A stretch of DNA of 64,000 nucleotides from Vandammella animalimorsus (lineage in GTDB: Bacteria > Pseudomonadota > Gammaproteobacteria > Burkholderiales > Burkholderiaceae_C), in the NCBI RefSeq assembly GCF_002285265.1, contig NZ_NSJB01000005.1, positions 62,001 through 126,000 of the forward strand, given 5' to 3'. The stretch's first letter is position 1; each line of letters opens with the position of its first letter. This document shows positions 12,611 through 32,246 of this stretch, piece by piece. Below the pieces are notes generated by a model that saw only the letters and a list, made by a program, of their open reading frames with translations, was not told the origin of the DNA and did no database searches. The translations under genes were made by a program, and so were the position numbers.

Positions 12611-12655
12611 GGTTCATGTCCTCCTGGTCAGCGGTTCTTGTATGAGAAATTAGGC

Positions 12656-12693
12656 AAAAAAAAGCCCGAGCACCCGCGCGAGGTCTCGGGGCT
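12656..12693 (-). terminator. Terminator between ahpC and ahpF
   Basis: Read on the minus strand, AGCCCCGAG pairs with CTCGGGCT across a GC-rich inner part and is followed by T8. Its place right after ahpC suggests that part of the ahpC transcript stops here, giving more AhpC than AhpF. Confidence 0.8.
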
Positions 12694-12747
12694 GGATGGC
12701 AACCGCGCCTGGCCGATGGGCCAGGGCTTGCGGCTCTCAGGATACGT

Positions 12748-13311
12748 TCAGATCTTGCCGACCAGATCCAGCGAAGGAGCCAGAGTCTTGTCGCCTTCCT
12801 TCCACTTGGCCGGGCAGACTTCGCCCGGGTGCGCGGCCACGTACTGGGCGGCCTTGATCTTGCGCAGCAGGTCTTCGGCGTCGCGGCCAATGCCCTCGGC
12901 GGTGATTTCCACCGCCTGGATCACGCCCTGCGGATCGACGATGAAGGTGGCGCGGTCGGCCAAGCCCTGGCCTTCGCGCAGCACGTCGAAGTTGTTGGCC
13001 AACTGGAAGGTCTGGTCGCCCACCATGTAGTACTTGATCTTGCCGATGGTGTCGGAGGTGTCGTGCCAGGCCTTGTGCGTGAAATGCGTGTCGGTCGAGA
13101 CGGAGAACACCTCAACGCCGAGCTTTTGCAGCTCTTCGTACTTGTCGGCCACGTCGCCCAGCTCGGTGGGGCAGACGAAGGTGAAATCAGCAGGGTAGAA
13201 GAAAAACACGGCCCACTTGCCCAGCACGTCCTTCTCGGTGATGTCGACGAACTGGCCGTTGCGGTAGGCGGTGGCCTTGAAAGGCTTGATGGGGGTGTTG
13301 ACCTTTGCCAT
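12748..13311 (-). CDS. ahpC: Alkyl hydroperoxide reductase subunit C (peroxiredoxin)
   Basis: This 187-residue typical 2-Cys peroxiredoxin reduces H2O2 and organic hydroperoxides. The peroxidatic Cys47 lies in FTFVCPTE and the resolving Cys166 in GEVCPAKW; the conserved Arg119 lies in LADRATF. Length is exactly that of AhpC proteins. The ATG at 13311 starts the conserved [16 protein letters not shown] sequence, so longer upstream openings of this frame are not coding. It is divergent from the YjfI gene across a 174-base AT-rich region where OxyR control would be expected. Confidence 0.97.
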
Positions 13312-13485
13312 GGAAATACCTCTTACGTTTGCAGGGGAACAATGATGGGCCGCAGTGTACGGCCTGCAAGGCAATAGATCAAATTGAGTAAATTCATTTA
13401 TAGGATAGAAAAAATAAATCAAACACCCTCCCAATACGGCGCAAACTCGATTGACGTCACATGTAAATTCAATAAAATCCATCAC
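13312..13485. promoter_or_regulatory. AT-rich divergent promoter region, ahpC / yjfI-like
   Basis: This is the most AT-rich spot for several kilobases, and it serves two divergent genes. GTAAATTCA occurs twice (about 13396 and 13463), followed each time by an A/T-rich block (tttataggat and ataaaatcc). An imperfect CAAT-N7-ATTG unit sits at about 13372-13386. An OxyR site (ATAG-N7-CTAT pattern) is plausible for ahpC but only partly matched, so I do not claim it. Confidence 0.4.
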
Positions 13486-14118
13486 ATGGAAAGAAAGTCG
13501 TCGGCCTACTACCAGCGCTTGCACCGCCAGCGCCTGCGCGAGAAGGGCCTGGTCAAGAAGGAGCTGTGGGTTCTGCCCGAATACGCGCAAGACCTGCTGG
13601 CATTGGAAAAACAGATGCGCCAGCCACGCGGCGCGCAGACATTCATCAAGGAGGGCATCATGAACACGGCAACACCCTGGACCATCCATGCCTTGCACCA
13701 GGCGCTGCTGGACAGCGACTGGGCCCGCAGCGGCAACGCGGCGCTGGAGCTGCTCGAAGGCGCAGAGGCCAGCATGCTGATCACCATGCACGACTACGGC
13801 CAGCTGCCGCTGTTCCTGGCCGTTGCCGGCGGGCAGATCGTGATCGAGGCCTACCTGTGGCCGGTCGAGCAGATCGCCGATCGCGCCGCCTTCAACGAGC
13901 AGGTGCTGCGCGCGCAAAAGGTGTTCCCGCTGGCCACGGTGGCCATCGAGCGCTTTGCCGACGGCCAGGATGGCTACATCGTCTTCGGCGCGCTCAGCGC
14001 CGCCGCCTCGCTGGCCAACGTGCTGTACGAAATCGAGACCCTGGCCGACAACGTCATCCAGATGACCGAGGCCTTCGAGCCGCTGCTGCGCCCGGCCGCG
14101 CAGCAGGCGGCGGGTTGA
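13486..14118 (+). CDS. YjfI-like DUF2170 family protein
   Basis: This 210-residue protein belongs to the YjfI/DUF2170 family. The DUF2170 domain begins at about residue 63 ([16 protein letters not shown]) and runs to the end; it includes [13 protein letters not shown] and the [11 protein letters not shown] helix. The N-terminal 55 residues are basic and helical ([19 protein letters not shown]), a DNA-binding-like extension that shorter family members lack. I chose the ATG at 13486 because it starts this charged segment; the frame is open upstream to 13384. It is followed at 61 bases by a PspA-family gene, the same pairing as E. coli yjfI-yjfJ. A role in envelope-stress regulation or PspA control is inferred. 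Confidence 0.8.
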
Positions 14119-14179
14119 TGGCCTTTTTGAACAGGTTCTTAACAACCGCCTTTTCACACTGAGCAAGGAGGAGACCGCC

Positions 14180-14908
14180 ATGTCGGTATGGAACAAACTC
14201 ATCACGGCGCTGCGCGGCGGCGCCCATGAAGCCGGCCAGGCCCTGGTCGATGGCCAGGCGCTGCGCATTCTGGATCAGGAGATCCGCGACGCCGATGCCG
14301 ATCTGCGCAAGAGCAAGGAGGCGCTGGCCGAAATCATCGCCAAGGAAAAGCTCGCGCGCGGCAAGCTGGAGCAAAGCGCCAAGAAGATCGCCGAATACGA
14401 GGGCTATGCCGTCAAGGCGCTCGATGGCAGCGACGAGGCCCTGGCCCTGGAGGTGGCGGGCAAGATCGCCTCGCTGGAGACCGTGCGCGACGAGGAGCGG
14501 GCCCAGGCCGAGCAGTTCGCCCACAGCGCAGGCCAGCTGCGCCAGGCCATCGCCCAGGCCGAGGCGCACATCCGACGCCTGAAGCAACAGGCCGACACCG
14601 TCAAGGCCACGGAAAACGTGCAGCGCGCCCAGGCCACCGTGGCCGAGCGCTACAGCGGCGGGCAGTCGCGCGTGCAAACGGCGCTGGACTCGCTGGAGCG
14701 CATCAAACAAAAACAGGCCGAGCGCGGCGCGCGGCTGCAGGCAGCCGCAGAGCTGGCCCAGGAAAACGCCGAAGACGCCCTGGATGCCCGCCTGCGCCAG
14801 GCCGGCATCAGCCCCGACGCGCACAGCGCCAGCGCGGTGCTGGCGCGGCTCAAGGCCCAGCGCAGCGGGCAGCCCGCAGCCAGCCCTGCCAGCAGCCAAA
14901 ACGATTGA
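14180..14908 (+). CDS. PspA/IM30 family protein (YjfJ-like)
   Basis: The 242-residue protein is almost wholly alpha-helical coiled coil, from about residue 20 to 205, with the family start [19 protein letters not shown]. PspA/IM30 proteins assemble into ESCRT-III-like rings and rods that bind and stabilise stressed inner membrane. The amphipathic first helix and the [20 protein letters not shown] segment fit YjfJ rather than the classical PspA of the pspABC operon. The C-terminal 30 residues are Ala/Ser/Gln-rich. The ribosome site aaggaggag is strong. It is flanked by YjfI-like and YqiJ-like genes, so it probably forms one membrane-maintenance unit with the flotillin. Confidence 0.88.
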
Positions 14909-15045
14909 GCCAGGCCACTGCCGGGGGTCTTGCCCCCCGGCCCCGCGAGCCCAAAGCGCGCGAGAATGCCTGCCCTGCGTCCGCGCCAACGGCATAGCCG
15001 CGCGGTGCGCCCGCCACCCACAAAAGCCCCGCTCAAGAGGTTCGC

Positions 15046-15696
15046 ATGCACAGCTTTTTGCAGATCGTCACCAGCTTCCCCACCGTGGTCTTCAGCATCC
15101 TGCTGGCCGTGGTCGTGCTGTATTGGCTGGTCGTGGCCCTGGGCCTGCTGGAGACCGAGGTGCTCGACAGCCTGTTTTTTGACGCCGACGGGCTGGACGG
15201 CGCCGATGCCGGCGCGCTGGCGGGCCTGCTCTCGCGCCTGGGGCTGGGCGGGGTGCCGCTGACCGTCATCCTCAGCCTCATCGTGCTCTTTGGCTGGCTG
15301 GCGAGCTACTTTTCCGTGCTGATTGCGCTGCCGCTGCTGGGCCATCCGGCCGTGCATTTCGCGCTGGGCGCAGCGGTGTTTGCCGGCGCGGGCCTGGTTG
15401 CCATCGTGCTGACCAGCCTGGCGCTCAAGCCCGTGCGCGCGCTGCTGCGCAAAGTGCCGCAGGAAGAGCCCAAAACCGTGCTGGGCCGCGTGGGCGTGGT
15501 GCGCAGCGCCAGCGTCAACGCCCAGAGCGGCTATGCCGCCGTGGACGACGGCGGCGCGGGCCTGGTGCTGCAAATCCGCACCCACGGCGATGAGCTGCCG
15601 CGCGGCAGCCGCGTGGTACTGATCGAGCCGCTGCCCGAGCAGCGCGCCTGGCGCGTCGTTTCCGAAGAAGAATTCCACACCGGCGCGCCGCAATAA
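15046..15696 (+). CDS. YqiJ-like OB-fold membrane protein (NfeD-related)
   Basis: This 216-residue protein has three membrane segments (about residues 8-32, 65-90 and 98-125). A cytosolic OB-fold of about 65 residues follows, beginning TVLGRVGVVRSASVN and ending in the typical RVVLIEPLPEQRAWRVV strand pair. The layout matches E. coli YqiJ, the NfeD-type partner always found with the flotillin YqiK. It lies 51 bases before the flotillin gene, and the two products probably interact in the membrane. I see no catalytic serine protease domain of the long NfeD type. Confidence 0.85.
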   Translation: MHSFLQIVTSFPTVVFSILLAVVVLYWLVVALGLLETEVLDSLFFDADGLDGADAGALAGLLSRLGLGGVPLTVILSLIVLFGWLASYFSVLIALPLLGHPAVHFALGAAVFAGAGLVAIVLTSLALKPVRALLRKVPQEEPKTVLGRVGVVRSASVNAQSGYAAVDDGGAGLVLQIRTHGDELPRGSRVVLIEPLPEQRAWRVVSEEEFHTGAPQ

Positions 15697-15747
15697 CCCG
15701 CCCTGCGCCGCCCCCCTTTCCTTTCACACACCCTTGGGAGAACACCG

Positions 15748-17775
15748 ATGAACTTGGCCTGGATCATGCCCCTGCTGCTGGGCATTGGCGTCGTCGTCGT
15801 CATCGTCGTCGCCTTGCTGGCGATGTTCAAAGCCTTCTACGTCAAAGTGCCGCAAGGCACGGCGCTCATCATCAACGACATGAGCTCCACGCCCAAGGTC
15901 AAGTTCACCGGCGGCCTGGTCTATCCGGTGATCCACAAAAAGGAGTTCATGAAGATCTCCCTCATCACGCTGGAGGTGGACCGCCGCGGCAAGGAAGGGC
16001 TGATCTGCAAGGACAACATGCGCGCCGACATCACCGTGGCCTTTTACCTGCGCGTCAATGAAACGCCCGAGGACGTGCTCAAGGTCGCCAAGTCCATCGG
16101 CGTCGATCGCGCCTCGGACAAGGCCGCCGTCAACGAGCTGTTCAACGCCAAGTTCTCCGAGGCCCTCAAGACCGTGGGCAAGCAAATCGAGTTCGTCAAA
16201 CTGTTCGAGAACCGCCAGGAATTTCGCGACCGCATCGTGCAAGTCATCGGCGAAGACCTCAACGGCTACGCGCTCGAAGACGTGGCCATCGACTACCTGG
16301 AGCAAACCCCCAAGGCCGCGCTGGACCCCAACAACATCCTGGACGCCGAAGGCATCCGCAAAATCACCGAGCTGACCGCGGCGCAAAACGTGGTGACCAA
16401 CGAACTCGAGCGCAACGAGGAAATGGCCATCACCAAGAAGAACGTCGAAACCAAGGAGGCCCTGCTGGCGCTGGAGCGCCAACAGGCCGACGCCGAGGCG
16501 CGCCAAAAGCGCGAAATCGCCACCATCCAGGCGCGCGAGGAGGCCGAAACCCGCAAGGTGCAGGAAGAAGAGCGCCTCAAGGCCGAGCAGGCCCGCATCG
16601 CCACGCAGGAGCAGGTGGACATCCGCGAGGAAAACCGCCTGCGCGAAGTGGAAGTGGCCCAGCAAAACCGCCAGCGGGCCGTGGTCATCGAGGCGGAAAA
16701 AGTCACCCGCGCGCGCGATCTGGAAATCGTCTCGCGCGAGCGCGAAGTCGAGCTGCAACGCATCGAGAAGGAAAAAGCCCTGGAAGTGGAAAAAACCCAC
16801 ATCGCCAACGTCGTGCGCGAGCGCGTGGCGGTGGAGAAAACCGTCGCCCAGGAAGAAGAGCGCATCAAGGAAGTGCGCCAGGTCTCCGAGGCCGACCGCC
16901 TCAAGCAAGTGGCCGTGCTGCAAGCCCAGGCCGAAGCCGAAGAGGCCCTGGTCAAACAGGTGAAAAAGGCCGAGGCCGACGAAGCCGCCTCACGCCACAA
17001 GGCGGTGGAAATCACCGTCGTCGCCCAGGCCGAGCTGGAAGCGGCCACCCAGCAGGCCGAGGCCAAGAAGCGCCTGGCCGAAGGCGTGCAGGCCGAGCGC
17101 GCCGCCCCCGGCCTGGCCGATGCCCGCGTGCGCGAAGTGGCCGCCGCCGCGCTGGAAAAAGAAGGCCTGGCGCAGGCCAAAGTCACCGCCGAGCAGCTCA
17201 TGGCCGAGGCCAAGGGCCTGGAGGAAAAAGGCCTGGCCGAGGCGCGCGTGATCGACGCCAGGGCCGATGCCGTCGAAAAGCAAGGCCTGGCCGAAGCCAA
17301 GGTGGAAGCCGAAAAGCTCATTGCCATCGCCAAGGGCGAGCAGGAGCAAGGCCTGGCGCGCGCCAAGGTCACCAGCGAAGTGGGCAATGCCGAAGCCGCC
17401 GTGCTGCTGGAAAAACTCATGGCCGAAGCCCGTGGCCTGGCCGAGAAATTCGCCACCCTGGGCCAGTTGGGCGACACCGCCCGCGCGCACGAGGAATTTC
17501 GCATGCAGCTGGAAAAGAGCTTCGAGCAAGCCATTGCCGGCATCGAGGCCAGCAAGCACATCGCGCGCGAGCAGGCCGAGGTGCTGTCCTCGGCGCTGTC
17601 CAAGGCCAACATCGACATCGTCGGCGGCGAAGGCGCGTTCTTCGACAAATTCGCCAGCGGCCTGTCCATGGGCAAATTCCTCGAAGGCGCGGCGGGCAAA
17701 AGCCCCATCATCCACGACTTGCTGCAGAAATTCACCGGCGGCAGCAATAAAAATAATGCGACGCCCGAAGAGTAA
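15748..17775 (+). CDS. Flotillin family protein (YqiK-like)
   Basis: This 675-residue SPFH-domain scaffold protein has an N-terminal membrane segment at about residues 6-28 and an SPFH/band-7 domain to about 190 (starting AFYVKVPQGTALII). A very long Glu/Arg/Lys-rich coiled coil runs from about 220 to 440. A flotillin repeat zone then contains four GLA(Q/E/R)A(K/R)V-type units at about 472-545. The tail is Gly/Asn-rich. Flotillins oligomerise into membrane microdomain platforms. The ribosome site (ttgggagaa) is good. With the preceding YqiJ-like and PspA-like genes it makes up the conserved core of this island. Confidence 0.92.
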   Translation: MNLAWIMPLLLGIGVVVVIVVALLAMFKAFYVKVPQGTALIINDMSSTPKVKFTGGLVYPVIHKKEFMKISLITLEVDRRGKEGLICKDNMRADITVAFYLRVNETPEDVLKVAKSIGVDRASDKAAVNELFNAKFSEALKTVGKQIEFVKLFENRQEFRDRIVQVIGEDLNGYALEDVAIDYLEQTPKAALDPNNILDAEGIRKITELTAAQNVVTNELERNEEMAITKKNVETKEALLALERQQADAEARQKREIATIQAREEAETRKVQEEERLKAEQARIATQEQVDIREENRLREVEVAQQNRQRAVVIEAEKVTRARDLEIVSREREVELQRIEKEKALEVEKTHIANVVRERVAVEKTVAQEEERIKEVRQVSEADRLKQVAVLQAQAEAEEALVKQVKKAEADEAASRHKAVEITVVAQAELEAATQQAEAKKRLAEGVQAERAAPGLADARVREVAAAALEKEGLAQAKVTAEQLMAEAKGLEEKGLAEARVIDARADAVEKQGLAEAKVEAEKLIAIAKGEQEQGLARAKVTSEVGNAEAAVLLEKLMAEARGLAEKFATLGQLGDTARAHEEFRMQLEKSFEQAIAGIEASKHIAREQAEVLSSALSKANIDIVGGEGAFFDKFASGLSMGKFLEGAAGKSPIIHDLLQKFTGGSNKNNATPEE

Positions 17776-17810
17776 AATGAAATCCGATTTCTTATATCAA
17801 GGATAAAATC

Positions 17811-18311
17811 ATGACAACAAAACCAAGCGGCAAATTATCGAAAATAGTACGCATTCTTGGAATTTTTTTCAAAACCGAAGATACTGTTCGATGGGCGATA
17901 TATGCTTTTCTTTCCATAATTTTTTACCAATTCGGAAATTTAAAGGAATTTATACAGACCGCCCGTCCAGGGATAGACACCGTAATATATATAGCCATTT
18001 TTTCTATTGTCGGCGCCTTAGCTATCTCACAGATAGAGAAATATTTAGGCAAAGACCATAAAGTATCCAGTGCGATTCTGGATGATGCCTCGGGCATCGC
18101 AAATATATTAATTGGAAATTATATTGGATTATTTGCAATAGCAATGTTTTCGAACACCGCCATCATTCTCGATACTTTGATCTTAGTTTCTATCTCTTTC
18201 ATGATTTTTGCTATTCTGAAGGTTTGCAAAATTATTTTCTTTAATTGCTGCAATAGGAGTAGCCCGCCGCCCACGCCATGCCCCCGCACACACCCAGCCA
18301 AAAAGCGGTGA
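17811..18311 (+). CDS. Small low-GC inner-membrane protein, unknown
   Basis: I do not recognise this 166-residue protein. It has four hydrophobic segments (about residues 28-42, 58-78, 100-120 and 124-146), separated by short charged loops, and no enzymatic motif. The gene is strikingly AT-rich (codons such as ATA, TTA and AAA dominate), unlike both neighbours. The last 20 residues (Pro/Arg/Cys-rich) come from flanking GC-rich DNA, as if the original 3' end had been replaced. A good ribosome site (caagga) precedes the ATG. Its stop overlaps the start of the next gene. It looks like a recently inserted passenger in the flotillin operon. Confidence 0.65.
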   Translation: MTTKPSGKLSKIVRILGIFFKTEDTVRWAIYAFLSIIFYQFGNLKEFIQTARPGIDTVIYIAIFSIVGALAISQIEKYLGKDHKVSSAILDDASGIANILIGNYIGLFAIAMFSNTAIILDTLILVSISFMIFAILKVCKIIFFNCCNRSSPPPTPCPRTHPAKKR

Positions 18312-18964
18312 TGGACATCACTGCGCAACTGCGCGCTGGCGCGGCCTGCGTGCAGTTGCCACTAGAACTCCAACACAACAGCCTTTGGCCGCGCTGGGGC
18401 CTGGAAATCCTGCTGCCCGTCCTGGCAGTTTTTGCGCTGGATCGCTGGGGCATCGCCTGGACTTTGGCCATTGCCGTCGCTGCGACCGTGCCGTTGGCGC
18501 TGTTGACGCGCCGCTTGCGTCGCCGCCAGCTTGCCAACGCCTCCATCCGCCGCCCCAACGCCCGCCATCCGGGCTGGCGCATGGAGTTCGCCCCTGCTCG
18601 CCTTTATCCCATCGGGCAGCCCCAAACGGCAACCCTCCAGGGACTGGATGCCGCCTGGAGCCTTGGCTGCTACCAGGTAGGCATGGACTTTCGCATCGAA
18701 CTGCGCCACCAAGACCGCGGCCCCGTTGCCCTGCTGTGCACCGTGCTGCAAGATGCAGCAGACCCGCAAGCGGCTGCGGCATTGCCGCCTTTGACCGATA
18801 CGCTGGTCGATCAACTGGCCGCCCGCCTGGGCGTGCGCCGCTCGGGCGGGCGACTTGCGTCTGCTGCAAATCCGAAGCTTGGGCGCTGCACCCAGACCCC
18901 TCTCCCGCCATCACCGACACCACCGCGCCATGTCCATGCCATCTCGCCCATCTCAATCGCCTAA
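18311..18964 (+). CDS. Hypothetical membrane protein in the flotillin island
   Basis: This 217-residue protein of unknown function has one long hydrophobic hairpin (about residues 33-68) and then a globular part of about 120 residues with no motif I can name. The ATG at 18311 shares a base with the upstream stop (TGATG), which suggests coupling; an ATG at 18278 would add 11 residues. The last 40 residues are Pro/His/Ser-rich and overlap the next gene, so the true domain probably ends near residue 180. The operon position suggests an accessory role. Confidence 0.55.
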   Translation: MDITAQLRAGAACVQLPLELQHNSLWPRWGLEILLPVLAVFALDRWGIAWTLAIAVAATVPLALLTRRLRRRQLANASIRRPNARHPGWRMEFAPARLYPIGQPQTATLQGLDAAWSLGCYQVGMDFRIELRHQDRGPVALLCTVLQDAADPQAAAALPPLTDTLVDQLAARLGVRRSGGRLASAANPKLGRCTQTPLPPSPTPPRHVHAISPISIA

Positions 18965-19478
18965 TCTTTCGCCCTGGACCACAGGAGCCATTGCCCTGGC
19001 AGTGGCCATCGCCGCCATTGGGGCTTACCACTTTCTGCTGCGCCAGTCCGAACGCGAAGCGGCAATGGAGACGGTGCGCGAAGCCGCCGCCGCCATGCAG
19101 GCGCAAAAAGAGCAGGAGCAAACCCAAGCCGTTGCCCAGGCCCTGCGCGAAGAGCGCTTGCGGCAAGGCTTTCTCATTGCCGCCGCCCTGCGCACCTGGA
19201 TTGCCGAATACCTCGCCACCCAGGGCAGGCTGCCCCAAAGCCTGGACGAACTGCGCTTTGATCTGCCCTACGACCACGTTTTGCAATCGCTGGAAATCGG
19301 CCCCGGCGGCGCCATCGTCATGCGCTTTTTGCCCCAATTGGGCCTGGATGGCGCCGTCACCCTCACGCCCAATGCCAACTTGGCCAGCGGCATGATCCGC
19401 AACTGGGATTGCGTCAGCGCCGATTTCGACTTCATCTCCCGCGCCATGCCTGGTTGCATCCATATCGGCAGCCGCTGA
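18930..19478 (+). CDS. Membrane-anchored protein with pilin-like C-terminal domain
   Basis: This 182-residue protein has a single membrane helix near residues 14-36, then a Glu/Gln-rich coiled coil (about 37-72) and a C-terminal domain of about 105 residues. That domain reads like the end of a type IV pilin: an ALRTWIAEYLATQGRLP helix, beta-strand residues IGPGGAIVMRF, LTPNA, then NWDC with Cys161 and PGC with Cys176. This matches the C-terminal disulfide loop of pilins. However, there is no class III prepilin cleavage site, and the coiled coil replaces the usual pilin alpha-1 helix. It overlaps the preceding gene by 35 bases. I infer an exported, membrane-tethered protein; function unknown. 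Confidence 0.6.
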   Translation: MSMPSRPSQSPNLSPWTTGAIALAVAIAAIGAYHFLLRQSEREAAMETVREAAAAMQAQKEQEQTQAVAQALREERLRQGFLIAAALRTWIAEYLATQGRLPQSLDELRFDLPYDHVLQSLEIGPGGAIVMRFLPQLGLDGAVTLTPNANLASGMIRNWDCVSADFDFISRAMPGCIHIGSR

Positions 19479-19604
19479 CAAAATACATATCAAAAGAAAA
19501 TTCATTCCATATCCATCATGCCAAAATAATGAAATTGTTTTTCCTTTGATTTAGAAAACCATTCACCCCCTTGCCCGAGCATCTCGGAAGAAAACCCATC
19601 TGCC

Positions 19605-19727
19605 ATGCCGCCCATCCCGTTTTTCAGCACGCTGAAAGAAAAGCTGTTTCCCAGCCCGCTCACATTCCAGACGGAAACCATTACCAACGAATGGTTCCGG
19701 GCACATTTTTTTACGCCGCCGATCTGA
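19605..19727 (+). other. Out-of-frame 5' segment of the methyltransferase gene
   Basis: An ATG at 19605, preceded by ggaagaaaa, opens 40 codons (MPPIPFFSTLKEKLF...NEWFRAHFF) ending at TGA 19725-19727. The peptide looks like the natural N-terminus of the following methyltransferase but lies in another frame. The two frames meet at a T7 run (19706-19712), read as CAT-TTT-TTT in this frame. A -1 slip there would join the two parts as NEWFRAHFFYAADLIHDWL. Confidence 0.6.
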
Positions 19728-20482
19728 TTCACGACTGGCTCAAACAGGATATTGATTTACCCGCAGCCAAAATGCTCAATTTCGGCTGCGGCGATGGCAT
19801 CAGCGATTTGGCGCTGATGCTGCGCCACGGCGCCACCCAAATCCACGGCATCGATATTCGCCGCGAATATGAAAAACTCCCCGGCATTGCGCGCGAGCAA
19901 ATCCAGCTCAAACGGCTGCCGCCGGGGCTGAGCTTTGAAACCATCCAGCCCGCCGCCCCCCTGGCGCCCCGGCACCAGGCCGTGGACGTCATCATGAGCT
20001 GGTCCACCTTCGAACACGTGCAGCGCGACCAGCTCACCCCCATTGCGAAAGACCTGTTCGAATGCCTGCGCCCCGGCGGGCTGTTTTTCCTGCAAATCGA
20101 GCCGCTGTACTACTCCGCCTGGGGTTCACACTTGCGCCGCTACATCCAGGAGCCCTGGGCACATCTGCTGCTGCCGGAGGACGAACTATGGCAACGCATC
20201 CAGGCCTACGACGGTGAACTGATTGCCGAAGAAGTCGATTTCGGCTTTGCCGATTTCGGGGTGGATGGCTACAAGCGCTTTGTTTTCAATGAATATCTGA
20301 ACCTCAATCGCCTTGGCGCCGACGAACTCGTCCAGTTAATGCAAAGCGTGGGCTTTGTAGCCGAGCGCGTGCAGAAAAATCTCATGCAAGACATCGCCCC
20401 TCCCGCCCCGTTATTGGAGCAATACCCAAAAGAACTGTTGCTGAATAATGAAGTGATATTGCTGCTGCGCAAGCCCGGTTAA
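19691..20482 (+). CDS. Class I SAM-dependent methyltransferase, probably frameshifted at its start
   Basis: This 263-residue methyltransferase has motif I LNFGCGDGISDLAL near residue 30. The post-I acidic residue lies in IHGIDIRREYEK, motif IV-like VDVIMSWSTFEHV near 100, and ECLRPGGLFFLQIEP is typical of Methyltransf_11. The ATG at 19691 is the first in-frame start but lacks a ribosome site and trims the N-terminus. A better start at 19605 is out of frame across a T7 tract. The presence of SAM and partner-like segments suggests the core is intact. The substrate is unknown; the C-terminal half (about 130 residues) has no motif I recognise. Restoring the frame would give about 292 residues. 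Confidence 0.7.
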   Translation: MVPGTFFYAADLIHDWLKQDIDLPAAKMLNFGCGDGISDLALMLRHGATQIHGIDIRREYEKLPGIAREQIQLKRLPPGLSFETIQPAAPLAPRHQAVDVIMSWSTFEHVQRDQLTPIAKDLFECLRPGGLFFLQIEPLYYSAWGSHLRRYIQEPWAHLLLPEDELWQRIQAYDGELIAEEVDFGFADFGVDGYKRFVFNEYLNLNRLGADELVQLMQSVGFVAERVQKNLMQDIAPPAPLLEQYPKELLLNNEVILLLRKPG

Positions 20483-20544
20483 CTGCCGATTGGAAACCGC
20501 GCCTGAAACCTGCAATTTCAGGCCATGATTCGCGAAACCCCTCC

Positions 20545-21126
20545 ATGCACCACCCACCTGCTACCCGCAAGCCCTGGCCCCAAGCCCTGCTCTGCGCCAG
20601 CCTGGCCGCCTGCGCCTTGTTTGCCGCCCCCGCGTCGGCACATTTCAAATGCGTGAACGCGGCTGGCAAAACCATGTACCAGGACACGCCCTGCCCTGCG
20701 GGCACCCAACCCGTCACCCGCGCGTCCAAAGCCCCCGCTCCTGCGCCAGAAGCCGCCAAGGCCGCAGCCCCCCAAAAAACCCAACCCATGCGTGGCGGAC
20801 CCAATGCTGGCGACAGCAGCGCAGACACAGCCATCTTGCCACTGGTGGCCCAGCAAGCCCTGTTCGACATTTGCTCCAGCGCCCATCCCGATCGCTATCT
20901 GGAAGCGCACAAGCTCTGGCGCGCCCAGCGCCAGGAAGCACTGGAGCAATACGAAAAAAGCGGCCGCTTCCAAGAGCTGCGCCGCAAAGCCGGCCAGCAG
21001 GCCCAGGAGCAATGGAGCCTCGCTGGCGCCGAGGCCAAAGCCGATTACTGCAAGGGCCAGGCGTTGCAGATGCTGGAGCAAGGGCTGAATAGTAAGCAAC
21101 GTATCAAGGCCGGAACCCGATCATGA
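20545..21126 (+). CDS. Exported DUF4124-domain protein
   Basis: This 193-residue protein has a cleavable signal peptide (hydrophobic about residues 14-30, cleavage after APASA). The short DUF4124 motif FKCVNAAGKTMYQDTPCP, with two Cys, follows directly. DUF4124 is a periplasmic beta-structure common in Burkholderiales and Pseudomonas, function unknown. The rest is an Ala/Pro linker, then a charged helical segment with two further Cys (DICSSAHP and DYCKGQ). The stop overlaps the ATG of the NYN gene by four bases (ATGA), an unusual link between an exported protein and a cytosolic nuclease-like one. Confidence 0.75.
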   Translation: MHHPPATRKPWPQALLCASLAACALFAAPASAHFKCVNAAGKTMYQDTPCPAGTQPVTRASKAPAPAPEAAKAAAPQKTQPMRGGPNAGDSSADTAILPLVAQQALFDICSSAHPDRYLEAHKLWRAQRQEALEQYEKSGRFQELRRKAGQQAQEQWSLAGAEAKADYCKGQALQMLEQGLNSKQRIKAGTRS

Positions 21127-22439
21127 GCTCCGCTCCCCCTCAACTGGCGTTATTCATTGATGCTGACAATTTCCGTGATTGCGATGCACTCAAGCAGGCC
21201 ATACGGAAAGTCTTCGCAGAAGGCGAGCCGGTACTCAAGCACGCTTATGGCGATGCAGTCAGCCTGAAAAGCCTTGAAGCACTGCTGGCTGAGTACGGCA
21301 TTCGTCCTGTCTGCAATGTGTCGGTCAGTAAAAACACAACCGATGTGGCCCTTGCCATCGCGGCGATGGAGGCCGTTTGTCGCAATCCAGCCATCAAAAC
21401 CGTCGTGATTTGTTCGGGTGATGCCGACTTCGCGCCACTGGCCATGCGCTTGCGGGAGCTTGGCTGCAAGATGATGTGCTACGGCATGGAGGGCATTGTG
21501 TTCAAGGCCGCCAGCCGGTTTTTTGATGAGGTGGAAGGCTTTAAATCGTCCAACGGAGATACCGCAGGATTGCCCAGCGCCCTTCAAGCATCGTCCCACA
21601 CGCCAGCGCAGCCCCCCTTGCCCAAGCCTGTTACCGGTGCGTCCGCCGCCGATTTGCCATCGCATCCTTCCGTCCAGCAAGTGCTGCAAGCTTGGCCCGA
21701 CTTGCGCAGCGGTCAGTGGCAACCCCTTTCGCAAGTTGTTGGGCACATGCGCAGGCTGGGGGTTCTGGGAGCTAACACCAAATTGACGCGATGGCTTACC
21801 CCCTTGCAACAGAGCTTCGAGGTGCAAACTGGAAGCCAAAAACCAAATCAGATTCGCTATCTGAAAGCTGGTGCACGGAGCGTGGCAAACGCTCCAGCGT
21901 TGACGAGAGCGCAGCTCTTGCAAGCCTGGCCTGATTTACACGACGGGCGCTGGCATCCTCTGCCTCCGGTGGTCTGCGCTCTGCGTCAGCGTGGCGATCT
22001 GGGCAAAAACAGCAAGATCGGGCGCTGGATCGGCCCAGAGTTCGAGTTGCACCCTGGCTACAAGCCAACACTGATTCGTTACCGAGTAGCCAATGCAGAG
22101 TTTGCAACCGCACAGAATGCTACAGACAAGAGTGGCAAACGCTCCCCCTTGCCCGTGCTGCCGGAAAAATTGCACCAGTTGCGACAAATACTGCTGCAAT
22201 TGGCGGTCCAACGCACCAGTGACACGCTGGTATTGATTGCCGCGCCCTGCTTGATGGCTGGCAATTGGTGTACTTACACCACTGTCGCCAGCGATTTGCG
22301 TGCGCAAGGAGTCTTGCACCCAAGCGTCTCCTTGCTACGCGTTTTGCGCAACCGACCCGAGCGCTGGGAGCTAGCCCCTGTCGAGCAGCCCCAGCAATTG
22401 CGTTACCTGGGCCATGTGAGGATGCACAAAACGCCGTGA
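21123..22439 (+). CDS. NYN-domain protein with three winged-helix-like repeats
   Basis: This is a 438-residue protein. Residues 8-140 are a NYN (PIN-like, LabA/DUF88) domain with the acidic cluster FIDADN near 12, the Asp in KNTTDVALAI near 73 and SGDADFAPL near 99. These residues are expected to bind a metal for RNA or DNA cleavage. Two clear tandem copies follow, starting QVLQAWPDLRSGQW (about 184) and QLLQAWPDLHDGRW (about 263) and ending in IRYLKA and IRYRVA. A third, more diverged copy lies at about 350-430. They resemble the OST-HTH/LOTUS-type modules often attached to NYN domains. Base composition is lower in GC than the neighbours. A nuclease role is inferred. Confidence 0.8.
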   Translation: MSSAPPQLALFIDADNFRDCDALKQAIRKVFAEGEPVLKHAYGDAVSLKSLEALLAEYGIRPVCNVSVSKNTTDVALAIAAMEAVCRNPAIKTVVICSGDADFAPLAMRLRELGCKMMCYGMEGIVFKAASRFFDEVEGFKSSNGDTAGLPSALQASSHTPAQPPLPKPVTGASAADLPSHPSVQQVLQAWPDLRSGQWQPLSQVVGHMRRLGVLGANTKLTRWLTPLQQSFEVQTGSQKPNQIRYLKAGARSVANAPALTRAQLLQAWPDLHDGRWHPLPPVVCALRQRGDLGKNSKIGRWIGPEFELHPGYKPTLIRYRVANAEFATAQNATDKSGKRSPLPVLPEKLHQLRQILLQLAVQRTSDTLVLIAAPCLMAGNWCTYTTVASDLRAQGVLHPSVSLLRVLRNRPERWELAPVEQPQQLRYLGHVRMHKTP

Positions 22440-22531
22440 AGCACAGCCGCGCCACGCCCGCCCGCAACAACTTTCACACACGATCGTCACCGGCACCATT
22501 TGCGCCATTGACGCCAAGGACAAGCCCCCTC

Positions 22532-25500
22532 ATGACTACCGACCAACACCACTCCGATCACGCCGTGGACCAGGCCGTCGCCAGCGGCGGCGCGTATGAG
22601 GTTTTGCGCAAGCGCCTGGCCGAGCAGGGCGCGGCCTTGCAGGCGCTGGCGGCGGATTTGAACGCGCAGCGCCTGGCCGAGTTCGGCGCCAGCCAGATGG
22701 GGCTGCTGGGGCGCGTGCGGGTGCGCACCGAGCACAACTGCGTGGGGCGCGACATCGTGCAGCTGGGCGAGCTGATGGTGTTTGGCTACAACGTGTTCCT
22801 GGGCATCAAGCAGGAGACACGCGTTGAGGATGTATTCGCCGTCTATCGCCTGCACGAAGGCGCGGCGGGCTCTGCGAGTTCTGCGGGCGATGGCAACGAA
22901 GGCGGCGCAGGCGGCGCGGGCTATGACGTGGTACCGGTCGATGCGGCGCAGACCTTTCTGGGCCAGCAGAGCTTTGTGCAGGATTTCCGCGAGCTCTACA
23001 CCTACTACAAGGGCGCGCGGCTGCTGCAATTGCGCGTCAAGGACGGCAAGCTGCTGGCGGCGTTTCAGATTGGCGAGCGGCTCTCGGACGTGCGGGTGTT
23101 TCGCTGGTCGGTCTCGCCCGATGGCCGCCAGGTGCAGTACATCGACAACCGCGGCGAGCGCGACATCGCCCTGCCCGCACCCTACGATTTCGAATGGACA
23201 GCGGCGGGCCGCGCCGACGTGGTGCAGGGCCGCCACCCGCACATCAATGTGCTGGATACGGTGTTCATCGACACGCTGGGCGGCGAGCTGACCGTCAAGA
23301 TCGAGAACAACACCAACGATGGCCTGGGCATCTGGCGCGAGGCCGTGCAGGACGCCACCCAGTCGCTGGACGACGCCAAGCTGGAATACGCCCGCGTGGG
23401 CAGCCTGATCCTGCTGAAGGTGCTGCCCTACCGCGAGGAGCAGTGGCGTTATCTGGTCTACAACACGCTGACACAGAAGGTGCAGCGCATTGATGCCATC
23501 GGCCTGGCCTGCATCCAGTTGCCCGAGGACCACGGCATCATCTTCCCCGGCGGCTACTACCTGCAAAACGGCGAGAGCCGCAGCTTCGGCCAGGACATGG
23601 GCGGCATGCGCTTCAAGCGCAGCTACCGCTCGCCCAACGGCGAGGACGTGCTCTACGTGTTCTACGAGCCCGAAAGCGGGCGCGTGGCGCTGTTCACCTA
23701 CAACCTGATTGCGCGCGAGCTGCAAGCGCCGCTGATCGGCCACGGCTACGCGCTGCTGGAGGACGGGCGCATGGTGCTGTTCAGCTCCGAGTCCGACGAG
23801 CCCACGCGCATCCACCCGATGCAGATCTGGCGCACGCCATTCGCCACCGAAGAATACGCCGCGCGCCAGCCCGCGCGCCACACGCCGCTGGGGCGCATCG
23901 GCAATGCCGAGCTGGTGCGCGGCATCTCCGAGCTGTACAGCCTCACGCGCGAGATCGAGGCCCAGGACATCTCCAGCGGCCGCTACGGGCGGCTGATCGA
24001 CACCACGCGCCGCCTGTTCGAGCGCTACCACTGGATGGAGCAGGGGCTGGGCGGCGCGCTGCCGACTCTGCCGCGCGTGCTGCACGAGATCGTCGCCAGC
24101 GGCGAGGCGGTGCTGGACGAATACGAAAAGGTCCAGAGCATCCGCAGCGACACGCAGCGCCAGATGAACGAGGCCGCCACGCGCCAGCGCAGCCTGCTGG
24201 GCGAGATCCGCCGCGGCGATTTGCGCCACACGCGCGATTACGTGCAGGCGCTGGCCAGCCTGGGCGCGCAGCGCGGGCGGCTGATGAGCGTGCGCGAACT
24301 GCGCTACGTCGATGCCGCCGCCGTGGATGCCCTGCAGGCCGAGCTGGACGCCGCCCATGCCGAGACGGCCCAGCGCACGGCCGAATTCCTCGCCAGCGAC
24401 GAGGCCCTGGCCCCCTACACCGAGGGGCTCAAGCAACTGGATGAGCAGGTTGCCAAGGCCCAGACCACGCCCCAGTTGCAAGAGCCGCTGGCGGCCATGC
24501 AGGCCATGTCGGCCGAGCTGGACACGCTCTCCGAGCTGATGGCCGTGCTGCGCGTGGACGACCCCACGCAGCGCACCCGCATCGTGCAGGGCATCTCCGA
24601 GATTTATGCCGCGCTCAACCAAAGCCGCGCCCGCGCCGAGCAGAAAAAGCGCGGCATGGGCGCGGCCGAGCAGGTGGCGCAGTTCGGCGCGCAGTTCGCG
24701 CTGTTTGGCCAAAGCATCGCCAGCGCCCAGGCCCTGGCCACCGACCCGGAAAAATGCGATGAGCAACTGGCCCGGCTGCTGGTGCAGCTCGAAGAGCTGG
24801 AGAGCCAGTACGGCGAGCACGAGCAGTTCCTGACCGACATCATCGCCAAGCGCGAGGAGCTGCTGGAGACCTTCGAAACCCACAAACAGGCCCTGCTGGA
24901 CGATCGCCAGCGCCGCGCCCAGGGCGTGTTCGACGCTGCGCTGCGCATTCTGGAAGGGCTGCCGCGCCGCACCGAGCGCATGGACGGGCAGGACGCGCTC
25001 AACGCCTTCTTCGCCGGCGATGCGCTGATCCTCAAGCTGCGCGAGCTGGCCGAGCGCCTGCGCGCGCTGCACGACCACGTCAAGGCCGACGACATCGAGG
25101 CGCGCCTCAAAGGCATCCGCGACCAGGCCCTGCGCGCGCTGCGCGACAAGAGCGATTTGTTCGAAGGCGACGGCAGCGTCATCCGCCTGGGCCGGCACCG
25201 CTTTTCCGTCAACACCCAGGCGCTGGATTTGACGCTGATGCCGCGCGGCGACACGCTGCATCTGCACCTGACGGGCACGGACTTCATGGAGCCGCTGCAC
25301 GCGCCCGAGCTGGCCGCGCTGCGCCCGTTCTGGGACGTCTCGCTCGAATCCGAATCGCCCCAATTGAGCCGCGCTGAATACCTGGCCCTGCAAATGCTGC
25401 AAGCAGCGCGCCCAACAGGGGTGGGAGCAGTGGGCACCACAGGCACCACCAGCCAGGGCGGCGAGCCAGGCGAAGAAGCCAGCGCCGCCGCCCCCAGCCG

Positions 25501-28162
25501 AGACCAGCTCATGGCCTTGCTGCCCAAGCCCGAGGAGCTGGTGCGCGCCGTGCGCGAATTTGCCGCGCCGCGCTACCGCGAAGGCTATGAGCGCGGCATC
25601 CACGATCACGATGCCGCCCTCATCCTGCAAGCGCTGCTGCCGCTGCAGGAGCAGGCCGGCGTGCTGGCCCACGACGCCCGCGCCCGCGCCCTGGCCGTGC
25701 TGCTGTGGAGCAGCCTGAGTGCGGGCCTGGATGGCGGCGCGGAGCCGGGCTTCAAACTGGCCGCCCAAGCGCGCCATTGGCCCAGCCGCGCCCAGGGCGC
25801 CGCCGCCATGCAGCAACTGCTGGGCAGCGCCCAGGCGCGCACCGCGCTGGAGCAGGAGATGGCCCAGGCCCTGCTGGCCTTTGCGCGCAGCCAGCAGCTC
25901 GAAGCCGTGTTTGCGCCGGCCGACGACCTTGACCATCCGGTGCAGCCCGGCCCAGCCGAGCACCCGCCGGGCCATGCCGCATCGAATGCCACACCGACTG
26001 CCGCGCCGACTACCGCCCTGCAATCCCTGGCCGCCCAGGCCGCGGCCTATCTGGCCGAGGAGCTGGCCGGCCCCGCCAGCGGCGGCGCGGCGCGGCTGCA
26101 CTTCTCCAGCCAGGCCGCGGCCCTGCTGCACAGCCTGCAAGAGCGCCTGCAATCCCAGGGCCGCTGGGCCGAGCTGCACGCCACCTTGCACGATGCCGAG
26201 CAGCCACTGGCCGTGCGCTTTGCCCTGGCCGCCCAGTGGCTGAGCGCCATCGCCCATGCCGAGGCCAGCACATCCGCCAAAAACGCCCAGGCCGCGCTGG
26301 ACTACGTGCCCGAAGCCGCCGCCCTGGCCCTGCTGCACGAGGGCACGGCGCACGAGGTGCTGCACGTGCCGCTGCGCACCACCGTCACCGGCCTGCTGGG
26401 CCAGCACCCGCGCATCCACGATGGCGCGCTGGAGCTGGGCGTGGACGACTTCGCGCGCCGCGCCCACTGGCACACCAACCACTTCGTGCCCGGCCTGCGC
26501 CGCTACCAGCAGTTGCGCCAGGACATCCTCACCGAGCAGCGCGCGGCCATGCGGCTGGACGAGTTCAAGCCCCGGCCGCTGGCCAGCTTCGTGCGCAACC
26601 AGCTCATCAACGACGTGTACCTGAGCGTCATCGGCGACAACCTGGCCAAGCAAATGGGCACCGTGGGCGAGCACAAGCGCACCGATCTGATGGGCCTGCT
26701 GATGATGATCTCCCCGCCCGGCTACGGCAAAACCACGCTGATGGAATACGTCGCCAGCCGGCTGGGGCTGATCTTCATGAAGATCAACGGCCCGGCGCTG
26801 GGCCACGAAGTGCGCAGCATCGACCCCGCCCAGGCACCCGACGCCACCAGCCGCCAAGAGCTGGAAAAACTCAACCTCGCGCTGGAGATGGGCAACAACG
26901 TCATGCTCTACATCGACGACATCCAGCACACCCACCCGGAGTTTTTACAGCGCTTTATCTCGCTGTCGGACGGCACGCGCCGCATCGAGGGCGTCTGGCG
27001 CGGGCGCACCAAGACCTACGACATGCGCGGCAAGAAGTTCTGCATCGTCATGGCCGGCAACCCCTACACCGAATCGGGCGAGGTCTTCAAGATCCCCGAC
27101 ATGCTGGCCAACCGCGCCGACGTCTACAACCTGGGCGACGTGCTCGGCGGCATGGAGGAGACCTTCAAGCTCAGCTACATCGAAAACAGCCTGACCAGCA
27201 ACCCCACCCTGGCCCCGCTGGCCACGCGCGATCTCAAGGACCTGTACCTGCTCATCGGCAAGGCGCAGGGCCGGGAATTCTCCGCCGGCGATCTCAGCCA
27301 CGACTACAGCGCCGCCGAGCTGCGCGAGATCGACGCCGTGCTCCAGCGCATGCTGGCTGTGCGCGAAATCGTCTACCGCGTCAACCAGCAATACATCGCC
27401 AGCGCCGCCCAGGCCGACGCCAACCGCACCGAGCCGCCCTTCAAGCTGCAAGGCTCCTACCGCAACATGAACAAGCTGGCCGAGAAAATCACCAGCGTCA
27501 TGAACGAAGCCGAAATGCAGCAACTGCTGGACGACCACTACCTGGGCGAAGCGCAGCTGCTGACCACCGGCGCAGAGGAAAACCTGCTCAAGCTCGCCGA
27601 GCTGCGCGGCCACATGAGCCAAGCGCAGCAGGCGCGCTGGCGCGAAATCCAGCTCAACTACCAGCGCACGCAAGCCATGGGCGGCGCCGATGCCGACACC
27701 GGCGGCCAAATCGTCGCCCAACTCATCGACCTGGTGCGCGCCACCCGCGCCCAGGCCGAAGCCAGCGCCAACCAGCCCGCCGCCCCCTGGGCCGAACTGC
27801 TGGCCAGCCTGCAACAACTGGCCGCCGCGCAGCCGCCTGCCGCACAGGCTGACGCCGCCAGCCCAAGCCAGGCAGAAAAAGACCTGGCCGAACAAACCAG
27901 CCGCCTGCTGGCCGCGCGCGAGCTGGGCCACCTGGTGGCCAGCGCCCTGCAACCCGTGCAAGACCACCTGGCCAACAGCCGCCGCCAGCAGCTGGGCCTG
28001 CACCGCGTCATGCTGCAAATCGCCGCCGCCATCCAGGAGCAGCTCGATCTGCTCAACGCCCAAGCCACCCCAGGCCACAAGGAGCGCGTGCGCCACACCG
28101 AAGTGGTGGACAAGGCCTTCGACAAAATGACGCGCACCGAGCCCCACAGCCCTGCGCCATAG
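22532..28162 (+). CDS. Giant AAA-family ATPase ('DNA repair ATPase' type)
   Basis: This 1876-residue cytosolic protein has an N-terminal beta-rich region (residues about 1-480) that I associate with the DUF3686 family. A coiled-coil section covers about 490-900, and an Ala-rich helical middle follows. An AAA ATPase domain has Walker A PPGYGKTT (Lys1400), Walker B MLYIDDIQ (Asp1462-Asp1463) and a sensor-like Asn in VMAGNPYTES near 1510. A helical tail follows. The ATG at 22532 is chosen because caaggac precedes it and MTTDQHHSDHAVDQAV starts the recognisable protein. Family members are annotated as DNA repair ATPases, but the evidence for repair is thin. Its place beyond the PspA/flotillin genes suggests an energy-using partner for membrane or nucleic-acid surveillance. 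Confidence 0.85.
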   Translation: MTTDQHHSDHAVDQAVASGGAYEVLRKRLAEQGAALQALAADLNAQRLAEFGASQMGLLGRVRVRTEHNCVGRDIVQLGELMVFGYNVFLGIKQETRVEDVFAVYRLHEGAAGSASSAGDGNEGGAGGAGYDVVPVDAAQTFLGQQSFVQDFRELYTYYKGARLLQLRVKDGKLLAAFQIGERLSDVRVFRWSVSPDGRQVQYIDNRGERDIALPAPYDFEWTAAGRADVVQGRHPHINVLDTVFIDTLGGELTVKIENNTNDGLGIWREAVQDATQSLDDAKLEYARVGSLILLKVLPYREEQWRYLVYNTLTQKVQRIDAIGLACIQLPEDHGIIFPGGYYLQNGESRSFGQDMGGMRFKRSYRSPNGEDVLYVFYEPESGRVALFTYNLIARELQAPLIGHGYALLEDGRMVLFSSESDEPTRIHPMQIWRTPFATEEYAARQPARHTPLGRIGNAELVRGISELYSLTREIEAQDISSGRYGRLIDTTRRLFERYHWMEQGLGGALPTLPRVLHEIVASGEAVLDEYEKVQSIRSDTQRQMNEAATRQRSLLGEIRRGDLRHTRDYVQALASLGAQRGRLMSVRELRYVDAAAVDALQAELDAAHAETAQRTAEFLASDEALAPYTEGLKQLDEQVAKAQTTPQLQEPLAAMQAMSAELDTLSELMAVLRVDDPTQRTRIVQGISEIYAALNQSRARAEQKKRGMGAAEQVAQFGAQFALFGQSIASAQALATDPEKCDEQLARLLVQLEELESQYGEHEQFLTDIIAKREELLETFETHKQALLDDRQRRAQGVFDAALRILEGLPRRTERMDGQDALNAFFAGDALILKLRELAERLRALHDHVKADDIEARLKGIRDQALRALRDKSDLFEGDGSVIRLGRHRFSVNTQALDLTLMPRGDTLHLHLTGTDFMEPLHAPELAALRPFWDVSLESESPQLSRAEYLALQMLQAARPTGVGAVGTTGTTSQGGEPGEEASAAAPSRDQLMALLPKPEELVRAVREFAAPRYREGYERGIHDHDAALILQALLPLQEQAGVLAHDARARALAVLLWSSLSAGLDGGAEPGFKLAAQARHWPSRAQGAAAMQQLLGSAQARTALEQEMAQALLAFARSQQLEAVFAPADDLDHPVQPGPAEHPPGHAASNATPTAAPTTALQSLAAQAAAYLAEELAGPASGGAARLHFSSQAAALLHSLQERLQSQGRWAELHATLHDAEQPLAVRFALAAQWLSAIAHAEASTSAKNAQAALDYVPEAAALALLHEGTAHEVLHVPLRTTVTGLLGQHPRIHDGALELGVDDFARRAHWHTNHFVPGLRRYQQLRQDILTEQRAAMRLDEFKPRPLASFVRNQLINDVYLSVIGDNLAKQMGTVGEHKRTDLMGLLMMISPPGYGKTTLMEYVASRLGLIFMKINGPALGHEVRSIDPAQAPDATSRQELEKLNLALEMGNNVMLYIDDIQHTHPEFLQRFISLSDGTRRIEGVWRGRTKTYDMRGKKFCIVMAGNPYTESGEVFKIPDMLANRADVYNLGDVLGGMEETFKLSYIENSLTSNPTLAPLATRDLKDLYLLIGKAQGREFSAGDLSHDYSAAELREIDAVLQRMLAVREIVYRVNQQYIASAAQADANRTEPPFKLQGSYRNMNKLAEKITSVMNEAEMQQLLDDHYLGEAQLLTTGAEENLLKLAELRGHMSQAQQARWREIQLNYQRTQAMGGADADTGGQIVAQLIDLVRATRAQAEASANQPAAPWAELLASLQQLAAAQPPAAQADAASPSQAEKDLAEQTSRLLAARELGHLVASALQPVQDHLANSRRQQLGLHRVMLQIAAAIQEQLDLLNAQATPGHKERVRHTEVVDKAFDKMTRTEPHSPAP

Positions 28163-32175: not shown

Positions 32176-32246
32176 GGCGAGATCCTTGTGTGCCAGGCCT
32201 GCGGCGCTGCGGGCCTGGCCCGCGCCCCAGAGCTGGCGCTGCGCTC

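Follow-up and report, generated by a model that had tools for sequence, protein, structure and literature searches.

A 64,000-nucleotide stretch of the Vandammella animalimorsus genome (assembly GCF_002285265.1, contig NZ_NSJB01000005.1, positions 62,001 to 126,000; hereafter the window) contains a run of eleven genes on the plus strand, at 13486-28162, which is probably an envelope-stress operon of the bac type with a recombinational cassette of cargo genes. Five core genes encode a YjfI/BacA-type protein, a PspA family protein, a YqiJ-like membrane protein, a YqiK-like flotillin and a large ATPase, and the cargo fills a slot downstream of yqiK and ahead of the ATPase gene (Table 1). As read from the DNA, the order of the core genes, their domain make-up and the exchange of the cassette are plain. 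An earlier note on this DNA had suggested that the run, 14.7 kb in length, is a single system for membrane-integrity surveillance with an effector arm. All eleven genes were found to be present and the union of the ATPase with PspA and flotillin was supported, but an NYN-domain protein and a methyltransferase as fixed parts were not.

The exchange of the slot was apparent from comparison with two relatives. In another V. animalimorsus locus (L010, genome G007) the flanks are 95-97% identical to those of the window, and positions 17743-22553 have no DNA match there except for one 53-base stretch. In contrast to this, most of the cargo is common to the window and locus L011 of Allofranklinella, the protein identities being 95% for the methyltransferase and 96% for the NYN protein. 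From YqiJ to the ATPase the alignable DNA is on average 94-98% identical to that of L011 (80-100% in 400-base pieces), as against 79% for yjfI and 86% for pspA. In a 7.2-kb control region the L011 genome gave only one long match, of about 1.55 kb at 81%; G007 matched throughout at 92-93%. Since the identity from YqiJ to the ATPase is high relative to yjfI, pspA and the control region, the pattern is that of a recently transferred block and points to its horizontal spread. In both the L010 and the L011 comparison the homology of YqiK stops shortly before the stop codon, and the C-terminal tails of YqiK differ among the eight species compared. The GC content at third codon positions is 0.85-0.89 in the core genes and 0.40-0.74 in the cargo. 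The cargo is mostly tightly packed, beginning 35 bp after yqiK and ending 92 bp before the ATPase gene, with a 4-bp overlap between the DUF4124 and NYN genes. Judged by these alignments, the genes that separate yqiK from the ATPase gene form a replaceable block.

Table 1. Features of the window and of the other loci compared (L numbers are our handles for loci; transmembrane-like stretches were called by a simple hydropathy scan)
Feature	Position or locus	Strand	Basis or remark
ahpC- and ahpF-like genes (peroxiredoxin, reductase)	11057-13311	-	AhpF-type domains by Pfam
YjfI/BacA-type protein, core gene 1	13486..14118	+	Pfam DUF2170 1.5e-47
PspA/IM30 family protein (YjfJ-like), core gene 2	14180..14908	+	Pfam PspA_IM30 2.8e-51
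YqiJ-like membrane protein, core gene 3	15046..15696	+	five transmembrane-like stretches, conserved position
YqiK-like flotillin (SPFH) protein, core gene 4	15748..17775	+	E. coli YqiK match
Variable cargo slot, yqiK to ATPase gene	17776..22531	+	
Small protein, three transmembrane-like stretches, A+T-rich (GC 0.39)	17811..18311	+	no match in L011
Small protein, one transmembrane-like stretch	18278..18964	+	83% to L011
Small protein sm3, one transmembrane-like stretch	18930..19478	+	43% to L010, 81% to L011
Class I methyltransferase	19571..20482	+	Pfam Methyltransf_23 1.1e-11
DUF4124 protein, N-terminal hydrophobic stretch, putatively exported	20545..21126	+	Pfam DUF4124 1.5e-07, hydropathy
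NYN-domain (MARF1/LabA-type) predicted ribonuclease	21123..22439	+	Pfam NYN 1.7e-21
ATPase of 1876 residues, core gene 5	22532..28162	+	DUF3686 5.8e-195, DUF7902 2.3e-26, AAA 2.6e-05
Slot NYN	window, L011, L014		
Slot PIN7	L013		
Slot HepT-like and MNT-type nucleotidyltransferase	L014		also has NYN
Slot Uma2	L052		
Slot PIN	L089		adjacent RHH-like match weak (0.0034)
Slot YhcG/DUF1016	L087, L090		
Non-nuclease cargo: amidase fragment	L012		
Non-nuclease cargo: DUF4156	L038		
Non-nuclease cargo: abhydrolase	L014		
Phospholipase D protein (example)	L075:18340-19047		

The core was followed in loci selected by the presence of the ATPase, which are uninformative on PspA/flotillin loci lacking it. 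A pattern search of GTDB contigs for relatives of the ATPase gave 35 loci. In all, 83 loci were compared, of which L062 and L064 were dropped as lying on the same contigs as L034 and L043, leaving 81 distinct loci; L045-L051, from the same genomes as L010-L016, had been dropped before the counts. The set is weighted to Burkholderiales and Pseudomonas and includes no Pseudomonas aeruginosa genome. The window proteins served as tblastn queries (1e-3) for the core genes, so that distant copies may be missed. In 79 of the 81 loci YqiK precedes the ATPase gene, and in 66 all five genes stand in the order of the window. Eight of the remaining 15 have YqiJ, YqiK and the ATPase only; PspA is missing in one, YjfI in one and YqiJ in one; L027 and L090 start at or just before YqiK, and L053 and L083 lack YqiK in the stretch available. 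Together with the reported co-transcription of the P. aeruginosa bac operon (PMC10948618; this and the other papers cited are used as far as their text was available), these counts bear out the earlier claim that the ATPase belongs with PspA and flotillin, and support it as their regular partner among ATPase-bearing loci. Of the two genes whose co-occurrence with the core the earlier note had proposed to survey, the ATPase is thus regularly near the core, but NYN only rarely, so that the outcome which the note named as refuting its idea holds for NYN and not for the ATPase.

The ATPase itself is patchily distributed across the sampled genomes. Whole-genome searches for DUF3686 found it in 8 of 40 relatives, 31 of 397 genomes of the family, 8 of 300 of the order, 11 of 370 of the class and 10 of 397 of the phylum (the genome of the window included in each), as well as in 7/29 and 1/26 genomes of two other genera, 2/20 of another family and none of 14 control genomes; the samples overlap. 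In one locus, L058 (G161:C42), the frame around DUF3686 is reported with one internal TGA and the complete ATPase frame was not recovered.

The locus as the earlier note states it is not novel, as a neighbourhood of DUF2170 (CesT/Tir), PspA, band-7/flotillin, YqiJ and AAA-beta-propeller genes was already described by Ravi et al. in 2024 (PMC11237479). The window has the same make-up, with DUF2170, PspA, YqiJ-like, YqiK-like and ATPase genes in order on one strand and an ATPase composed of an N-terminal beta-propeller (within DUF3686), a coiled coil and an AAA module. The available text of that paper regards the DUF2170 protein as CesT/Tir-like and reports a phospholipase D (HKD) gene in some such operons; it does not mention a variable slot, and the term NYN is absent from the main text. 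In P. aeruginosa the bac genes (bacABCDEF) form one operon by reverse transcription PCR, and a bacA mutant has five partner proteins raised 6.1- to 13.5-fold and several detoxifying enzymes reduced (PMC10948618). DUF2170, PspA, short-NfeD and SPFH genes follow one another there in the same order as in the window (NfeD/SPFH: PMC13086221). PA3728 is listed as an ATPase (PMC8190622) and, judged by gene number, would come after the SPFH gene PA3729. Unlike the window, the bac operon is described without mention of a nuclease cassette in the text available, and the sigma-54 promoter proposed for it (PMC10948618) has no counterpart upstream of YjfI in the window.

Identities of the core proteins are of uneven strength. 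The YjfI protein scored 342.6 bits against the NCBIfam model NF050185, 'biofilm formation regulator BacA' (cut-off 300), which assigns it to BacA, and it matched the PDB entry 8q8o, 'DUF2170 family protein', at 2.4e-36; its identity to E. coli YjfI is 38% over 107 residues. The PspA protein is 36% identical to E. coli YjfJ over 231 columns (1e-30). YqiK is 29% identical to E. coli YqiK over 470 residues (8e-43) and has a single N-terminal transmembrane-like stretch; a Pfam search at 0.01 gave no family. The YqiJ assignment is weak, being suggested by size, membrane stretches and position, as Pfam YqiJ_N was reached only at an E value of 0.006, under the cut-off, and BLASTP against E. coli YqiJ gave no meaningful match. 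Of the 'three small membrane proteins' of the earlier note, the first does have several transmembrane-like stretches, but the other two have one each. E. coli K-12, as the note had correctly stated, keeps yjfIJ and yqiJK apart, at 4.41 Mb and 3.19 Mb, a distance of 1.2 Mb. Its yjfIJKLMC and yqiJK genes encode homologous YjfI, PspA and YqiK proteins in two loci rather than the single one of the window, and no such ATPase is annotated in the two 11-kb stretches around yjfI and yqiJK. Members of the PspF, PspB and PspC families of the classical Psp system (pspFABC) were absent from the eleven genes and two upstream open reading frames (ORFs), the part of the genome that was searched.

The slot contains a homologue of the window NYN protein in 3 of 81 loci and one of the methyltransferase in 2 of 81. 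The methyltransferase is moreover frameshifted: when it is aligned with the L011 homologue, its body is read in another frame than its N-terminus, with the change near 19706-19712, which could be explained either by a mutation or by a sequencing error, the two being indistinguishable. For these reasons a fixed single system including both genes was rejected; NYN and methyltransferase belong to a passenger block specific to the lineage. The NYN protein carries five aspartates, D13, D15, D74, D100 and D102, invariant in all three slot homologues, which we take to be catalytic, and by its domain and these acidic residues it is predicted to be an NYN ribonuclease. Its model, built from three sequences with a mean pLDDT (predicted local distance difference test) of 61.6, has an NYN fold and three C-terminal winged-helix-like repeats of helices and small strands; with this low-confidence model Foldseek found the MARF1 NYN domain at 5.3e-04. 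In the NYN domain, the aspartates and the winged-helix-like repeats behind them the protein is like the MARF1/LabA-type ribonucleases. The repeats are covered by no Pfam model, and their identity as OST-HTH/LOTUS domains is putative.

Relatives of the NYN protein also occur elsewhere. Of the 48 genomes searched with it, 30 gave some match, many of them weak, and in three (G000, G009, G003) the gene is in the slot. In genome G957 a weak NYN-like match (8.4e-6) lies on the ATPase contig, outside the slot, about 3.6 kb beyond the ATPase gene. The same amidohydrolase-family gene, presumably a dihydroorotase, adjoins the off-slot copy in all four cases read (L107-L110; by Pfam in two). Given these chromosomal copies outside the slot, in some relatives this NYN family is an ordinary chromosomal gene, and it has entered the slot in two lineages.

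Over 79 loci the length of the slot spans 10 bp to 8.8 kb. The ORFs within it were selected mechanically, and the Pfam scan did not cover every short slot. Of the 19 slots of at least 700 bp, 8 contain a nuclease or nuclease-type toxin at an E value of 1e-10 or better, of five family types (NYN, PIN/PIN7, HepT, Uma2 and YhcG), all on the operon strand. Since the window and L011 share one cassette, these represent at most seven independent cases. Two Lampropedia species are among the carriers, L. cohaerens with PIN7 and L. hyalina with NYN and MNT-HepT. A PDDEXK_5 match in L084 (E value 3.1e-04, below the cut-off, in a slot of 669 bp) was excluded from the eight. The other 11 slots hold zinc-ribbon, TerB-like, sm3-like, DUF4156, amidase-fragment, reverse-strand globin-GGDEF and unassigned ORFs. 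A zinc-ribbon protein is found in the slot of many Burkholderiales, and a TerB-like protein of about 80 residues in that of many Pseudomonas and three other loci (L054-L056); the Pfam TerB match in L041 reached only 0.0022, below the cut-off, and L055 gave no such match. The slot of L090, at about 1.5-10.3 kb in operon orientation, is the 8.8-kb one and by eye contains, besides YhcG/DUF1016, a run of nqr-like genes, for which a rearrangement or an assembly fault is possible.

As a control, 60 ORFs flanking the operon in 23 loci were scanned at 1e-10, and none of the five slot nuclease families was seen among the 50 of 61 family matches listed; one DNA_pol_A_exo1 exonuclease and one ORF6N domain were. 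These ORFs were chosen by hand from 198 mechanically picked ones, and some of their frames are possibly wrong. With mostly housekeeping flanks, the control is of moderate weight: it separates the slot from its flanks, not from other insertion sites.

Against a functional role of the cargo, it is quite possible, though slightly less likely than not, that the slot is a neutral insertion site, at which the gap between yqiK and the ATPase gene tolerates mobile toxin-antitoxin or nuclease genes, as any permissive place would, with no functional tie between cargo and core. Slots shorter than 450 bp in 40 of 79 loci would fit such a site, as would the frameshift in the window methyltransferase, the NYN relatives outside the slot and the non-nuclease cargo of L012, L038, L014, L016 and L090. 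The recurrence of five types of nuclease on the operon strand, unmatched in the flanks, speaks against it within the limits of the control.

Several points also weigh against a bac-type operon with an exchangeable cassette read together with it. The slots of L010 and the window are not wholly unrelated, as they share one small protein, sm3, at 43% identity. The slot gene of Corticibacter populi, for a globin-coupled diguanylate cyclase, is in reverse orientation (L016:8367-9929). No sigma-54 site within 2 mismatches was found on the plus strand in the 417 bases before YjfI, and terminator-like sites lie on the plus strand of the slot at 18410 and 20064. The action of the ATPase on PspA or flotillin is proposed by analogy only. 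Deletion of paFlo3, the P. aeruginosa flotillin of the bac operon, reduced biofilm by about 20% and gave no strong phenotype in the text available (PMC13086221).

The transcription signals themselves were close to background. The best sigma-54 site in the window has 4 mismatches, a level reached by 199 of 200 shuffles, and the best sites of other loci have 2 mismatches, reached by at least 19 of 200; sigma-54 control as in P. aeruginosa was rejected, as no site stood beyond the shuffle level. The terminator-like scan gave 23 sites overall where 18.4 were expected (standard deviation 4.9), no better than chance, and 4 promoter-like patterns near the operon against 2.3 expected (standard deviation 1.8) are little or no more than chance. 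Between a sigma-70-like match at 13451-13478 and the start codon there are only 7 bases.

If the locus is indeed a bac-type envelope-stress operon with a cargo cassette, PspA polymers and a YqiJ/YqiK scaffold of the NfeD-flotillin type would, by the functions of their relatives, keep the inner membrane stable and organised. The ATPase, with its propeller and AAA module, would most likely bind PspA or the YqiJ/YqiK assembly through its propeller and remodel or disassemble it with ATP, as Vps4 does with ESCRT-III. YjfI/BacA may act as a small, chaperone-like regulator and hold down the other genes, BacA being reported as a repressor in P. aeruginosa. The cargo may be mostly read through from the operon promoter, in which case a cargo nuclease would be produced alongside the envelope-stress proteins. 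The NYN protein could then cleave RNA upon envelope damage, riding on the operon without being needed by it.

A stronger version, which we regard as unlikely, makes the locus a sensor of membrane damage into which effectors can be plugged: lineages would swap nucleases (NYN, PIN7, RHH-PIN, MNT-HepT, Uma2, YhcG), many other loci end with a single-HKD phospholipase D (PLD) akin to mitoPLD/Zucchini, and damage to the envelope would in this way be coupled to cleavage of RNA/DNA or cardiolipin. Of the 81 loci, 33 encode such a PLD protein, of about 235 residues, downstream of the ATPase gene, the distance ranging from an overlap with the end of that gene to 2.1 kb; no relative was found within 7.8 kb after the ATPase gene of the window. 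Pfam gave PLDc_2 in the two proteins tested, each of five inspected has one HKD motif, and the one sequence compared with structures gave 1.4e-27 with mitochondrial cardiolipin hydrolase (mitoPLD/Zucchini) and 1.3e-08 with a bacterial endonuclease. That PLD and slot nuclease are alternatives was considered and rejected. PLD is present in 0 of 8 nuclease loci and 33 of 68 others (76 loci, Fisher 0.008), but with relatedness reduced to 51 representatives the difference was not significant (0/8 against 13/43, 0.096), and with the 48 left after dropping three Pseudomonas representatives the value was 0.18; the nuclease set of 8 here includes the weak L084 and omits L011, whose flank is too short.

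That the operon is, in this lineage, an oxidative-stress membrane repair module, acting in peroxide defence together with a divergent ahpCF pair, is unlikely. The genes upstream of the window operon, which we take to be ahpC and ahpF, are divergent from it, as they are in L010, and in L013 both lie upstream with an ORF between. A Shewanella COG2268 knock-out is peroxide-sensitive (PMC1468410) and the bacA mutant has lower levels of several detoxifying enzymes (PMC10948618), both as far as these texts were available. Nevertheless, ahpCF was found in only 3 of 81 loci, at least 3 kb of upstream DNA being available in 75, and in P. aeruginosa SPFH mutants the accessible text reports oxidative-stress resistance unimpaired beyond slight effects (PMC13086221). 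Downstream of the operon, at 29382-32425 on the minus strand, FecCD-type permease and periplasmic-binding-protein domains suggest an iron-siderophore uptake locus.

A dedicated anti-phage system, in which PspA, flotillin and the ATPase sense phage membrane damage and in response activate the slot nuclease so that infection is aborted, is very improbable: unrelated nucleases do recur in one slot on the same strand, YhcG/DUF1016 of L087 matches the PADLOC candidate PDC-S02 at 1.2e-126 and the NYN protein of L014 weakly matches a LabA-like NYN model (1.5e-04), but the flanks look housekeeping, no nuclease was found in most of the 79 slots, with Pfam covering not all of the short ones, and among the ten proteins scanned against PADLOC 2023, five of them from the window (PspA, YqiJ, DUF4124 and the small proteins being outside the scan), YjfI, YqiK and NYN of the window had no match, the ATPase gave only LmuB (3.9e-04, residues 566-894) and the methyltransferase only mad2 (1.3e-04). 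The LmuB and mad2 matches were too weak and partial to be used.

The core operon is thus known from gene-neighbourhood work and biofilm studies, and what was not found in print is the repeated occurrence of nucleases in one slot. A literature search, with most subscription journals outside it, found neither a paper that treats DUF3686 or a slot of this kind nor an assigned job for the ATPase of the operon. With unrelated nucleases recurring in the same slot, the 'effector arm' of the earlier note gains some support in another form. The exchangeable nuclease slot is a new and testable observation, and a slot that repeatedly receives nucleases on the operon strand offers a concrete experimental handle. 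If the slot genes are independent of the core, the slot would be instructive as a site of insertion within an operon. If they are co-induced with the core and depend on it, the envelope-stress system would gain an effector arm hardly visible in tests of biofilm, motility or peroxide resistance.

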